Positions 10,712 to 44,622 of a stretch of DNA of 52,042 bases are shown piece after piece. Source of the stretch: Parcubacteria group bacterium Gr01-1014_17. GTDB lineage: Bacteria > Patescibacteriota > Minisyncoccia > Phycocordibacterales > UBA10002. Each line of letters starts with the position of its first letter. The stretch's first letter is position 1. The stretch is from assembly GCA_007376285.1 (NCBI GenBank), contig VMFZ01000002.1, forward strand, positions 1 to 52,042. The letters are read 5' to 3'. Under the pieces are notes generated by a model. That model did not search any database, had not been told where the DNA came from, and worked only from the letters and a program-made list of their open reading frames with translations. The translations under genes and the position numbers were made by a program.

Positions 10712-12739
10712 TTATTGTTCCTCTTCAATTTTCTTTCTGATATATTCTGCTTTTTCGTACTGCCCCACTCTCTCATACGAATCCGCAAGCCGGTTGTCTA
10801 AAAACATTGTTTCCCCAAAGATTTTCTTCATATACGCGTCGGCTTCAACATATTTGCGCGCGTACACGAGTGAAATAGCATATAACCGTTTGGATTCTAT
10901 GTCCTCGCCGTCGGGTAAGATGTCCGCGGCTTGTTTAAAGATTGTCACCGCTTTATCAAACTTTCCCATATTCAGAAAACTGGTTCCCCATTCATAAAGC
11001 GAGGGTTGTTTGTTCGGTGAAAGGGCTACTGCTTTTTCCAAAAACGGTACAGCGGCGGCATACTGCCGATAGGTGTTGAGCACCGTACCAAGCCGCAAAA
11101 GATATCGCGGGTCGCCGGGCGATTCTGCAATCTGCTGCGATAACTCTTGCGTAACTAATGAGACAATTTTAGCGCGCGATTCATCTTTAAGCGGTACACT
11201 AGAAACATCAACGGCAAATTGTGCGAGCATTTCGCGTGCTTCGGTGGTCGCAAATGTGTTGAGCGAGATGGCGCGGGTAAAATATCCGAGCCGCTCATCC
11301 AGATTGGGAGAGGGGCTCCGAAGCCCAAGATTAATGGCGTGCGCCGCAACGGCGGGTTTTGCGATGGTGAAATAAAAAATAATACTGGCTATAGCACAAA
11401 CCAAGAAAATAAAAAACATCCTCCGATTTTCGGAAGCTCCCCCTTTCAAGGGGGGTTGGGGGGATGTGATTGTGTATTCCGCGAAGCGTTTTTTTGACTC
11501 TGCATACGCCAAAAACGAGAAGAAAATTATTGACGATGTAACTGTATCAAAAGAAAAGATATTAAACGCGGCATATCCTGCAAACATTCCGGAAAGTGCG
11601 ACTTTTTCCCACGAGGAAAAAGCGGCAACGCGGCGACTCCAGACCGCGCGCGCGAGCCCAACCCAAAGCGCGAGGTACGCAAGCAAACCAATACCACCCG
11701 CCTGCACAAGCCAATCAAGATAAGTGTTGTGTGCGCGGTCAAACCATTGTTCCCGCCCATACAAGCGCGGGTCGTAATATTTCACAAAAACAGAGCGATA
11801 CCCTTCGGGACCCCAACCGAACAGCGAACGCTCTTTCGCCCCTTGAAGCGCAATCTTCCATGACAAAAACCGCGCTTCTGCATCTTGTCCGGTGAGTGAA
11901 ATAGAAAGAAGGCGGCCAAGCAATGGATGAGCCGTGGCAGAGGGAATCTGGCGCAAAGCAAAAAATAACCCAACAAAGAGCGCGAGCCCCGCGAGCGCTG
12001 CAATGCTAAACCGCTTTATACTCACACTTTCTTTACAAAGCAAAAATGCCGCGCTTCCGGATACAAAAAGCGCTACGGGAAGCGCGACAAACGCGCTTCT
12101 TGTTCCCGAAGCAAGTGCGAGAAAAACAAACAATGCGGAGCAGGTGGTATACATGAGACGCCGTCGCCGCACCATCTCACCTGAAGCGAGAAAGAGCCCG
12201 AGCCCAGCCGAAAGCAGCATATAAGCGGCAAAAAATGAAGGGTTACCGACGGTTGCATCAATACGCAACACTCCTTGGTGTGTAGGAAGAACACTCACAA
12301 GTTGAAGAAGTGCAATGACGGACACGATGATAGCCGTCCCGATGAAGGTGTTAAAAAAAATCTTCCAAGATTTTTCGTCTAATAAATGGGACGCAGAAAA
12401 GAAAAACGCTGCAAGAAAAAGCGCGCCCACTAATCCGTCCATCCGTTCAAGCGTTGACCAAAATGCCAAAGACGGATATGGCGCGAGCATGGTTGCACTA
12501 CCAATCAAAATTATAAATACAGACATCGCCCATACCAAAAACGAGGAACGCGGCCGAAAGCGCTCGGGCGACTGAACCCATAGCAAAATCCAGCACGCCA
12601 ATGCCATGAGTGCGAGTGCTCGAAAAAAGAAATTCCTACCGCTCGTATAGGGAAACAAAAAACCTAGGTACACCGCGAGCGGAGTAAGCGGAATCAAAAA
12701 CAGAACGCTGACACCAACACGCCGCGTCAACCAAGTCAT
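10712..12739 (-). CDS. O-antigen ligase (WaaL-like) membrane protein with C-terminal TPRs, copy 1
   Basis: The product is about 675 residues from the preferred start MTWLTRRVGVS (the frame extends to 12766). About eleven transmembrane helices occupy residues 1-435. The periplasmic loop has the Wzy/WaaL signature: LFGWGPEGYRSVF, KYYDPRLYGREQWFDRAHNTYLDW, including the conserved His before NTYLDW. The C-terminal third is TPR-like (AAVPFLEKAVALSPNKQ, KAVTIFKQAADILPDGED). WaaL proteins join polysaccharide to a carrier; in a lipopolysaccharide-free CPR cell it may glycosylate surface proteins such as the S-layer-like protein (inference). Residues around 434-451 (SPQPPLKGGASENR) come from a palindromic insert. 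A paralogue lies immediately upstream. Confidence 0.85.
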   Translation of the reverse strand: MTWLTRRVGVSVLFLIPLTPLAVYLGFLFPYTSGRNFFFRALALMALACWILLWVQSPERFRPRSSFLVWAMSVFIILIGSATMLAPYPSLAFWSTLERMDGLVGALFLAAFFFSASHLLDEKSWKIFFNTFIGTAIIVSVIALLQLVSVLPTHQGVLRIDATVGNPSFFAAYMLLSAGLGLFLASGEMVRRRRLMYTTCSALFVFLALASGTRSAFVALPVALFVSGSAAFLLCKESVSIKRFSIAALAGLALFVGLFFALRQIPSATAHPLLGRLLSISLTGQDAEARFLSWKIALQGAKERSLFGWGPEGYRSVFVKYYDPRLYGREQWFDRAHNTYLDWLVQAGGIGLLAYLALWVGLARAVWSRRVAAFSSWEKVALSGMFAGYAAFNIFSFDTVTSSIIFFSFLAYAESKKRFAEYTITSPQPPLKGGASENRRMFFIFLVCAIASIIFYFTIAKPAVAAHAINLGLRSPSPNLDERLGYFTRAISLNTFATTEAREMLAQFAVDVSSVPLKDESRAKIVSLVTQELSQQIAESPGDPRYLLRLGTVLNTYRQYAAAVPFLEKAVALSPNKQPSLYEWGTSFLNMGKFDKAVTIFKQAADILPDGEDIESKRLYAISLVYARKYVEADAYMKKIFGETMFLDNRLADSYERVGQYEKAEYIRKKIEEEQ
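11416..11467. repeat. palindromic element with ACATCC/GGATGT ends inside the ligase gene
   Basis: The 52-bp unit starts ACATCC and ends GGATGT, with a core of CTCCCCCTTTC AAGGGGGG and a G-rich arm. It codes in frame for TSPQPPLKGGASENR, at the junction of the membrane and TPR regions. Its ends and core match the longer element inside argS (43116-43208), which lies in the opposite orientation relative to its gene. Confidence 0.75.
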
Positions 12740-12771
12740 AGTATTATGATGTGCGAAACCCAGCATAAGAG

Positions 12772-37329: not shown

Positions 37330-37387
37330 AAAATCCACCCCCTTGAATCCCCCTCCTTTATAAAGGAGTGGGCTGGGGGAGGATTTT
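37330..37387. repeat. palindromic element with AAAATCC/GGATTTT ends next to recO
   Basis: The 58-bp unit has inverted 7-bp ends (37330-37336 and 37381-37387), a central CTCCTTTATAAAGGAG palindrome and G-rich arm. It has the same plan as the elements inside the ligase gene and argS (inverted ATCC/GGAT ends, C-run and G-run, central palindrome). It ends 1 nt before the recO stop. Confidence 0.65.
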
Positions 37388-37981
37388 TCAAAGACCCGTC
37401 ACTCTAAGAGATGAATTTATTATTGAAACCAGTTGTCGCCGAAGCGGCGCAACTGAAGAAATCTCAAATGCGCCGAAGCCCTCGCCCGCCGCAACATCCA
37501 AAAACTCGCGTGGTTCTCCGAGGTATCCCAAATGGAACAAAATGCGTAGCGCGAGCAAAATCTCAATATCGCGGAGTTCTCCTGGCGCGCATGCGCGACT
37601 CTGCAAAATCGCCGCACACGAAACTACCGCATCAAAAAGTTTTTCGTGTTTCTCTTCCGGCGGCAAAAGTCGCCGGAGAAGGAGCGCCGCCCGCCCCAAA
37701 CACAGGCGGGCGGCGTCCTGTCCATCGAGTGCGGAGAAAAAGTTTGCGCGCGACACCGCGTTCGCAAGCCGCCATATTTCCCTACCACGCACAAGCCACG
37801 CATCCGTGTACGAAAAATCGGTTAGATGGTAGCGGAGTTTTGAGCGCGCAAGGCGTATGCCTTGCGCGCGCGCAGAAACGAGCCCAAGCTCGCGCGTGAA
37901 AAGCAGAATCGTCCGGCTTCCTTCGCCAACGGGTGTGCTTCCCAACACGAGTGCAGGAGTGTGGTAGAGATGATAAGACAT
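37388..37981 (-). CDS. recO: DNA repair protein RecO
   Basis: The 197-residue product has the N-terminal OB fold (YHTPALVLGSTPVGEGSRTILLFTRELGLVSARAQGIR) and the helical domain (RANFFSALDGQDAARLCLGR, LFDAVVSCAAILQSR). The zinc-finger Cys residues of many RecO proteins are absent. It loads RecA onto SSB-coated DNA with RecR. The gene lies 2 nt downstream of ileS. Confidence 0.85.
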   Translation of the reverse strand: MSYHLYHTPALVLGSTPVGEGSRTILLFTRELGLVSARAQGIRLARSKLRYHLTDFSYTDAWLVRGREIWRLANAVSRANFFSALDGQDAARLCLGRAALLLRRLLPPEEKHEKLFDAVVSCAAILQSRACAPGELRDIEILLALRILFHLGYLGEPREFLDVAAGEGFGAFEISSVAPLRRQLVSIINSSLRVTGL

Positions 37982-42873: not shown

Positions 42874-44622
42874 TTACATCTTCTCCGGCGTGGCGATGCC
42901 GAGAAGCCAGAGACCGTTTTTCATTACTTGCGCGAACGCCCGCGTGAGCGCGAGGCGATACGCCGTCTCATCGCCGGCATCTAAAATGCGCTCTTTCGCG
43001 TACCACCCGTTAAATGCGCCAGCGATCTCAATAAGATAGGTCGCAATATAATGCGGCGCGTATTCTTTGCCAGCGCGTTCAACAATTTCTGGGAAGCGAT
43101 AGAGAAAGCGAGGAAGAACATCCCCCCCACCCCCCTTCAAAGGGGGAGCTTTTACAGTTCCTCCCTTGAGGGAGGTGTCCCGACATAATGTCGGGACGGA
43201 GGATGTTCCTTTCCGCAACACCGAGCACGCCCGCGCGTAGGAATACTGCAAGTACGGCCCTGAGTCGCCTTCAAACGAAATTGATTTATCGAAATCAAAA
43301 ACAATATCTCCGCCGACTTGTTGGCGCAAAATGGAGTATTTTATAGAGCCGACAGCAACCACTTCAGCAACTTTTTCTTTTTCAATATCAGAAAATTCCC
43401 GTTCTTTTACTTTTTCCAACACCATCTTTTTAACCCGTTCAATAAGCCACTCGCCAGTAATCACGCCGCCTTTGCGCGACGACATTTTGCCGGTTGGAAG
43501 CCGCAACATTCCATGCGACAAATGCTTCGTCTTTTTCGCCAAATCCGGAAATACAAACTCCATCGCCTTCAAAAGTACCTTGAAATATTCATTTATCTCA
43601 TTACCTGTTATCACGACTGAAAAATCATAGGGATATTTTTCGTATTTTATTTTCGCAAGCCCCAATTCTTTCGCTTCATAGGTCGGAAGGCCTTGCGAAT
43701 TCAGAAAGACGCGGGTATGCAACCCTGACTTTGATTCCGGAAATACAACTGCGCCTTCGCTTTTTTCAAAAATCCTCCCAAGATTTTCTTCAACGAGTTT
43801 TTTCCCAAGCACGCCGGTCTCGCTCTCAAAAAAATAATAGTCAAACTTCGTCCCAAGTGTTTTGTAGATTCCTTCAAAGTGTTCCAAACTAACCTTTTTT
43901 CCATCTTGGTATATCTTATTTACCGTGTTGTCTGATTGTTCAAAAATCTTTGTGTTTAGTTCATTGATTTCTTTCTTGATGTCCTCGTAGGACTCATACA
44001 TTTCTGAACCATACGCATACGCCTTACCCCAGTCCGTAATGGTCTTGCCACCTAATTTTTGATATCCATAAACCGCTTTCGCAACATGAAGCCCGACATC
44101 GCCTTGATAGCACGCGCGCTTCACTTCTGCTCCGTGAAAAGCGGTAATGCGCGCGATTGCTTCTCCGATCGCGTTGCTCATCAAATGCCCGATATGAAAT
44201 TCCTTGAAGGGATTTGGTTGCGTATATTCAACCAAAGCCCTCATTCCCGCACAGTGTTCATTTCTTCCAAAATCATCTTTCTTTTCCAAAATTTCTTTCA
44301 CCTGCTCCGCAAAAAACTCTTTGGATAGATAAAAATTAATGAAACCAGCACCAGCCACTTCTGCCTTTCCCATCCAAGTTCCCATCCAAGGACTTCCAAT
44401 CCAAGGACTGTCCTTGGATTTTAAGGACAGTCCTTTTAATATTTTCTCCGCCAACTCCTTCGGCTTCATCTTCAATTCTTTCGCATACTGAAGCGCAACA
44501 TTCGTAGAATAATCGCCATGCGCCAAATCTTTGGGGTGTTCCAACGAAACCTCCGAGTTATCCACCCCGAGTGCTTTGAGCGCCTCGCCAATCACTTTTT
44601 TAATTTCTTCTGTAATCATCAC
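42874..44622 (-). CDS. argS: arginyl-tRNA synthetase
   Basis: The 582-residue class I enzyme has an N-terminal Add domain, HIGH in FKEFHIGHLMSNAIGE (about residue 140), KMSSR near residue 400 (LPTGKMSSRKGG), and a helical anticodon domain at the end. Two palindromic inserts lie in frame: residues about 63-85 (KGLSLKSKDSPWIGSPWMG) and about 472-503 (GTSSVPTLCRDTSLKGGTVK...), each in a surface-linker position not seen in typical ArgRS. The gene follows the second toxin-antitoxin promoter region on the same strand. Confidence 0.96.
   Translation of the reverse strand: MMITEEIKKVIGEALKALGVDNSEVSLEHPKDLAHGDYSTNVALQYAKELKMKPKELAEKILKGLSLKSKDSPWIGSPWMGTWMGKAEVAGAGFINFYLSKEFFAEQVKEILEKKDDFGRNEHCAGMRALVEYTQPNPFKEFHIGHLMSNAIGEAIARITAFHGAEVKRACYQGDVGLHVAKAVYGYQKLGGKTITDWGKAYAYGSEMYESYEDIKKEINELNTKIFEQSDNTVNKIYQDGKKVSLEHFEGIYKTLGTKFDYYFFESETGVLGKKLVEENLGRIFEKSEGAVVFPESKSGLHTRVFLNSQGLPTYEAKELGLAKIKYEKYPYDFSVVITGNEINEYFKVLLKAMEFVFPDLAKKTKHLSHGMLRLPTGKMSSRKGGVITGEWLIERVKKMVLEKVKEREFSDIEKEKVAEVVAVGSIKYSILRQQVGGDIVFDFDKSISFEGDSGPYLQYSYARACSVLRKGTSSVPTLCRDTSLKGGTVKAPPLKGGGGDVLPRFLYRFPEIVERAGKEYAPHYIATYLIEIAGAFNGWYAKERILDAGDETAYRLALTRAFAQVMKNGLWLLGIATPEKM
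43116..43208. repeat. 93-bp palindromic element with GAACATCC/GGATGTTC ends inside argS
   Basis: Inverted 8-bp ends (43116-43123, 43201-43208), a C/G-run palindrome, CCTCCC/GGGAGG (43160-43175) and a perfect 21-nt palindrome around 43177-43197. It codes in frame for about 31 residues. Read on the other strand, ends and core match the 52-bp element in the ligase gene, with an extra internal block. Confidence 0.8.
44403..44435. repeat. 13-bp stem palindrome inside argS
   Basis: AAGGACTGTCCTT (44403-44415) and AAGGACAGTCCTT (44423-44435) are perfect inverted arms around 7 bases; adjacent sequence repeats CCATCCAAG-type words. It has the same arm plan as the folA palindrome (AAGG-N5-CCTT). Confidence 0.75.

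Follow-up and report, generated by a model that had tools for sequence, protein, structure and literature searches.

Palindromic elements in frame in argS and other genes of a Parcubacteria bacterium, and a candidate DUF559 endonuclease at the core of their longer form

Rickettsia palindromic elements (RPEs) are palindromes reported to lie within conserved genes without breaking the reading frame (PMC10969869, PMC2229807, PMC3733652), and a 2013 survey assigns them to the CGTC-type repeats, a class without a dedicated transposase (PMC3733652). Three other kinds of element invite comparison: REP sequences and REPINs with their RAYT transposases (PMC3733652, PMC2817692, PMC3116915), MITEs (PMC10969869), and the EDxHD or Vsr-like homing endonucleases, such as I-Bth0305I (PMC3943268). 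Caulobacter VsrA, a DUF559 protein, is described as a Vsr-like endonuclease required for the DNA-damage response upon methyltransferase loss (PMC12907096).

The window analysed here is a stretch of 52,042 nucleotides from Parcubacteria group bacterium Gr01-1014_17, whose genome (the window genome; 610,266 bp in 30 contigs) is the basis for our element counts. A preliminary description of the window proposed that a 93-bp palindromic element lies in frame in argS, that a 52-bp unit with common ends and core lies in frame in a waaL-like gene, oppositely oriented relative to its host, and that the two represent a mobile palindrome surviving as coding sequence in the manner of RPEs. Both units, their common ends and core and their opposite orientations were confirmed (Table 1), argS being intact at 582 codons and the shorter unit lying within an O-antigen ligase/TPR gene of 684 codons. 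The wider proposal is also supported. A genome-wide search recovered approximately 20 copies, so the argS and waaL units do not stand alone, and in an alignment of ArgRS from ~29 relatives the insert residues occur only in the window genome, the linker differing in each. In argS the element replaces a variable linker and does not interrupt otherwise identical sequence. A palindrome put forward as a third copy is indeed intergenic beside recO (RecO_N match), but its AAAATCC/GGATTTT ends place it in a different family, another copy of which lies inside a glycosyltransferase gene (C21:33357-33420). Within recO itself, at window positions 37849-37880, there is a long perfect palindrome, GCGCGCAAGGC...GCCTTGCGCGC, which the close relative G011 shares. 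An intein or group I intron in argS was considered and rejected: the insert of ~31 residues is too small for splicing domains, a Pfam intein domain is absent from ArgRS, and the window holds no Rfam intron.

Table 1. Coordinates of the palindromic elements, their parts and their host genes. Plain positions refer to the window; positions elsewhere in the window genome are given as contig:position and are those of the host gene.
Feature	Position	Strand	Basis
argS (arginyl-tRNA synthetase), 582 codons, intact, host gene	42874..44622	-	Pfam tRNA-synt_1d, DALR_1, Arg_tRNA_synt_N
In-frame palindromic element, C-D type, in argS, 93 bp, GAACATCC...GGATGTTC, encodes about GTSSVPTLCRDTSLKGGTVKAPPLKGGGGDV	43116..43208	-	sequence; missing from ArgRS of relatives
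Terminal repeat ACATCC of argS unit, pairs with GGATGT at 43201-43206	43118..43123	.	invariant in 19 copies
Hairpin H3 of argS unit, CCCCCTTCAAAGGGGG	43131..43146	.	core pattern and covariation
Hairpin H2 of argS unit, CCTCCCTTGAGGGAGG	43160..43175	.	two compensatory pairs in H2 helix
Hairpin H1 of argS unit, GTCCCGACATAATGTCGGGAC, fast-changing arm, pairing kept	43177..43197	.	5/7 pairs changed on both sides
Terminal repeat GGATGT of argS unit	43201..43206	.	sequence; covariation set
Second in-frame palindrome pair in argS, different family, CCAAGGACTGTCCTTGG and AAGGACAGTCCTT	44401..44435	-	motif search
O-antigen ligase (Wzy_C) / TPR protein, 684 codons, host gene	10712..12766	-	Pfam
Short in-frame copy, ACATCC...GGATGT, 52 bp, in waaL-like gene (gene on minus strand)	11416..11467	+	sequence
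Intergenic palindrome, separate family, ends AAAATCC/GGATTTT, beside recO	37330..37387	.	sequence; missing in G011
In-frame copy in polA	C17:18573-20981		polA identity from sequence and 40 homologues
In-frame copy in leuS	C24:3021-5354		
In-frame copy in PfkB-like kinase gene	C11:74406-75224		
In-frame copy in UvrD-like helicase gene	C18:21806-24760		
In-frame copy in peptidoglycan-binding protein gene	C3:2185-3414		
In-frame copy in LTD/PKD protein gene	C29:397-1629		
In-frame half-copy in murB	C8:9525-10769		

The elements of the window genome end in ACATCC/GGATGT, measure 52-124 bp with up to four hairpins, and are alike over their full length; from the ends alone, about 8 unrelated pairs would be expected by chance. 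Their core, CCCCCTT-N-AAGGGGG, occurs 21 times in the genome, against 0 occurrences of a reversed-pattern control. Short copies consist of two halves, each with an ACATCC end and one or two hairpins, around a ~10-nt spacer. The halves are of type A (ACATCCCTCC, hairpin CTCCGNC...GNCGGAG, TA, hairpin CTCCCCTCAAGGGGAG), B (ACATCCCCC, hairpin GTCTCCC...GGGAGAC, A, hairpin CCCCCTT...AAGGGGG), C (ACATCCTCC, hairpin, ACCTCCCTCAAGGGAGGA) and D (ACATCCCCCCAACCCCCCTT...AAGGGGGA), and they combine as A-B, C-D, A-D and C-B. The sequence CGTC is found at the base of H1/H4 in certain halves and is missing from others. Across 19 copies, a five-helix structure comprising the terminal stem and four hairpins leaves 97.1% of cells paired, with 12 pairs changed on both sides and 53 double-change cells, compared with 18.5±4.1 after shuffling and at most 9 after sliding. 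Predicted single-strand folds of the element are branched, and H2 and H3 are able to pair mutually. Perfect stems call for caution, since template-switch correction of DNA palindromes can regenerate them in the absence of functional selection. Nearly all elements have at least one stop-free frame per direction, which makes in-frame survival possible. Visual inspection of the sequence flanking the catalogued ACATCC copies showed no evident target-site duplication, there being no clean empty site for comparison.

Recognisable genes of the window genome contain at least eight full or short copies and a further half-copy, all of them in frame. Several copies are intergenic, beside gene ends. That the elements form a dispersed family residing in frame in genes is well supported. 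Almost the whole of the close relative G011 (~80% DNA identity; PolA and LeuRS 85% identical) was compared. Its argS, leuS, murB, helicase and kinase genes are free of the element, as are several further sites, and the flanks at these places are mostly ~72-88% identical. The added segment is visible in the protein alignments for leuS and murB; in LeuRS, G011 has RLQEKIGKCEAGSALLHQTIKK where the window genome has RLQDKIHPPPRKPSAPPSKGELRNSSLEGGVSRRETEDVLLHQTIKK. In polA and the LTD gene the element occupies the same position in both genomes, with outer hairpins that differ and pairing that is kept, and another G011 contig spans polA without the element. Element-less relatives usually carry some other linker, so that this divergence offers no clean pre-insertion sites, and at any one site absence in relatives may also reflect loss or replacement.

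The ArgRS linker, between SVLRK and LYRFPE, is a tolerant place. Palindrome stems number 11 in 2,025 nt of linker and 27 in 46,662 nt of other argS sequence (p=3e-7), a density in the linker ~9x that of the remaining gene, and the palindromes involved are of unrelated sequence (loci L064, L066, L067, L068, L069, L075, L077, L082 and L091, G011 and the window). Some of those in relatives may belong to other mobile families or be local template-switch products; the G011 linker carries an apparent half-element of a family with CACCCC/GGGGTG ends. The argS gene of the window also contains a second in-frame palindrome pair (Table 1), whose motif brackets a Y1 (RAYT-like) transposase gene at C21:18078-18790 (L048) and occurs within an ORF at C17:5826. 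Two distinct systems of mobile palindromes thus appear to have entered a single argS gene.

A longer form of the ACATCC element carries a gene. At C7:2731-3199, a B half and a C half enclose a DUF559 gene (C7:2777-3130) that occupies the place of the ~10-nt spacer of short copies; its stop codon abuts a hairpin, and the encoded protein has 117 residues. At this locus in G011, 69 nt replace the whole insertion. That genome keeps three or four copies or halves, and DUF559 was not detected in it, a combination that fits decay, but also independence of the copies from DUF559. G006 has a DUF559 element with 78.6% identity across ~450 bp, at a non-orthologous locus. Loci L116 and L141 do not differ in 3.3 kb, which identifies G006 as Ca. 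Taylorbacteria bacterium RIFCSPLOWO2_01_FULL_48_100 or a genome very close to it. In a further genome (G099), an entire DUF559 domain lies in frame inside LeuRS (L112, G099:C44:12283-12582; open frame 1142 aa), between palindrome-encoded peptides and at the same site as the short palindrome peptide HPTPTLPKGKG in the LeuRS of the window genome. The CACCCC/GGGGTG family of the window genome brackets a DUF559 gene of its own (C15:318-626; L029, C15:200-780).

Several further observations concern these loci. Around the DUF559 element on C7 lies a larger insertion (C7:2085-3248; L022), whose outer halves are of types B and A and which also contains a 148-codon ORF with no Pfam match. Solo copies of the CACCCC/GGGGTG family occur in several places, e.g. 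C11:55955, C24:6478 and C6:8318. A four-helix-bundle (IVP) protein was rejected as a partner of the element, its gene being single in the genome with no such palindromes beside it; this 23S_rRNA_IVP gene (C6:2220-2531; L021) appears to occupy an insertion close to the 5' end of the 16S rRNA gene.

The predicted structure of the DUF559 protein (11 sequences; pLDDT 85.6) matches the catalytic domain of I-Bth0305I (3r3p_B; Foldseek E=3.5e-5), a N. gonorrhoeae DUF559 structure (3hrl) and, more weakly, Vsr. Residues E26, D55, E66, H72 and D79 are invariant and D68 is nearly so. On this model, the protein looks like a homing-type nuclease of the Vsr-like or EDxHD-like kind. As with I-Bth0305I (PMC3943268), a predicted catalytic fold of this type is combined with a selfish nuclease gene in an inserted element. 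The DUF559 protein is, however, much smaller and without the long DNA-binding region, and its gene is palindrome-flanked and associated with no intron or intein; the elements occupy many different sites per genome.

DUF559 loci in other genomes were located by a single-protein scan of contigs and scored for hairpins, defined as perfect stems, 6 bp or longer and with three consecutive C or G, lying within 160 bp. Both flanks carried a hairpin for 13/18 DUF559 genes of the order (2/96 control intervals of the same loci), 21/30 in an independent phylum-wide sample (controls 0/169) and 9/16 from other phyla and plasmids (controls 0/309), by a criterion chosen after seeing the data under a stricter one (7 bp, run of four, 200 bp), which gave 8/18 and 6/30 in the order and the phylum-wide sample, and none among controls. 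A Smith-Waterman score between the two flanks discriminated less well than the hairpin test, because the two halves differ. CCCCTY...RAGGGG motifs had a median of 16 in genomes with a strong DUF559 match versus 1 in others (p=7e-10), the genomes not being phylogenetically independent. The excess holds within the genus (p=0.008); outside it, the excess comes mainly from two genomes (G035 and G058) and loses significance (p=0.39) once four motifs per DUF559 gene are subtracted. Palindrome type tracks DUF559 lineage: the more alike two DUF559 proteins are, the more alike are their flanks (Mantel r=0.35, p=2e-4).

A related arrangement is found in rhizobia, where a two-palindrome repeat of ~130 bp stands, in complete copies, on both sides of DUF559 genes (L139, Sinorhizobium sp. 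K101; L274, S. meliloti Ak57; L273; L276). This repeat, possibly the RIME element, occurs at 1,242 places in 265 plasmid records. It resembles the elements described here as a multi-copy, two-palindrome repeat with DUF559 between copies, and differs in that the gene stands between two complete copies rather than within one and in that its sequence is unrelated to the ACATCC elements. One solo repeat on pSymB occurs in most strains, and S. meliloti LMB1 as well as Sinorhizobium sp. M103 lack it; this locus was rejected as a clean empty site because ~28 bp extra are also missing. Picosynechococcus plasmid arrays, which vary between strains but are nested and not readable as clean empty sites, were likewise set aside. 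E. coli ycjD (L140) has hairpins on its 3' side only, and the DUF559 gene of a Synechocystis sp. B12 plasmid (L138), accompanied by a palindrome half, seems to split a DUF1156 gene. The searchable literature, from which most subscription journals are absent, contained nothing relevant on DUF559 in connection with palindromic repeats, mobile elements or inverted repeats, and the novelty of the link is accordingly provisional.

We are now able to propose that the ACATCC elements are an RPE-like mobile palindromic family whose full form bears DUF559, a predicted Vsr-like endonuclease, as its driver, and whose short copies are non-autonomous; we place the probability of this reading at roughly 0.6. 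The architecture of the elements, the co-occurrence of gene and hairpins and the predicted fold together suggest that DUF559 probably drives their spread. Under such a mechanism, the small Vsr-like or EDxHD-like nuclease encoded in the spacer of the full form would recognise folded hairpins and nick or cut DNA at the element or its target. Host repair would then copy the element to new places. Genic copies would survive only in a tolerant loop with the frame kept, and would be translated thereafter. More tentatively, and with somewhat less than even odds, DUF559 proteins may mobilise a widespread and hitherto undescribed class of elements bounded by hairpins, in Patescibacteria, cyanobacteria, rhizobia and others, in which case many C-rich palindromic repeats of bacterial genomes would be gene-less copies that insert even in frame in essential genes.

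The likeness to RPEs lies in palindromes of ~100-150 bp with terminal inverted repeats, in several families per genome, in translation within conserved genes and in a reduced genome; here, palindromes of 52-124 bp with terminal repeats are in frame in argS, leuS, polA, murB and others. This likeness concerns anatomy and residence and not sequence, so the elements work like RPEs rather than being RPEs. They differ in their host organism, in invariant ACATCC/GGATGT ends, in modular halves and in having a DUF559-bearing form, no dedicated enzyme having been reported for RPEs. MITEs (PMC10969869) are similarly short and non-autonomous, with terminal inverted repeats and an interior relation to a longer gene-bearing form, here the C7 element; in contrast, no DDE transposase was identified, no target-site duplication is evident, and there are up to four internal hairpins.

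The resemblance to REPs and REPINs raises the question of whether a Y1 transposase (IS200/IS605, RAYT-type) moves the elements in trans, as proposed for REP, with DUF559 a passenger in one of them. Inverted, paired hairpin halves, gene-bearing and gene-less forms and copies in replication and repair genes are common to both systems (PMC3733652, PMC2817692, PMC3116915). The window genome has two Y1 genes, one of them bracketed by the other palindrome (CCAAGGAC.GTCCTTGG) that is also present in argS, which shows a system of this kind at work in the window genome, and the lack of an evident target-site duplication at ACATCC elements would agree with it. Against this, neither Y1 gene is adjoined by an ACATCC or GGATGT element, and the gene found between halves, in two families here and at most sampled DUF559 loci, is DUF559 and not Y1. 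Identity with REP was rejected by the GTAG and RAYT criteria (PMC3733652): the elements are longer, end in ACATCC/GGATGT without the GTAG tag, and have as their candidate enzyme a predicted PD-(D/E)XK-type nuclease. We consider a Y1 mover unlikely. Only marginally less unlikely is that a homing-type DUF559 gene preferentially invaded ready-made palindromes as a safe site, the short elements having spread without it through repair, gene conversion or template switching. The free mixing of halves is what inter-copy recombination would give, hairpin arms at shared sites are wholly changed and still paired, and G011 has copies and no detected DUF559. An invasion of this kind sits poorly, however, with the recurrence of the association with unrelated palindrome types over several phyla, with the tracking of DUF559 lineage by palindrome type, and with gene-bearing elements at different loci in G006 and the window genome.

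Two further explanations appear very improbable. The unrelated palindromes in the ArgRS linker of many relatives might indicate that palindromes arose in place, via template switching in relaxed protein linkers, and were never inserted. Some linker palindromes other than the ACATCC unit could have this origin, but for the ACATCC family it is contradicted by dispersed copies: the ends, modules and sequence of the argS and waaL units are common to ~20 copies, intergenic and gene-bearing ones included. A comparably remote prospect is that the elements are regulatory RNA hairpins or terminators retained for a cellular function, as their GC-richness, their strong covariation and the position of several beside gene ends might suggest; copies within the frames of argS, leuS and polA, a patchy distribution between close relatives and the absence of an Rfam match in the window argue otherwise.

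If the mobile-family reading holds, DUF559, a protein of 117 residues at the element core, is a candidate for the mover of palindromic repeats that reside in frame, the Rickettsia elements among them. With a candidate enzyme in the core of one element and gene-less copies in the same genome, the question of the mover becomes directly testable. An answer in favour of DUF559 would assign a role to part of a family listed in Pfam as a 'protein of unknown function'. More generally, aminoacyl-tRNA synthetases, DNA polymerase I and MurB would be seen to gain new peptide segments from selfish DNA, in the streamlined genome of an uncultured bacterium.
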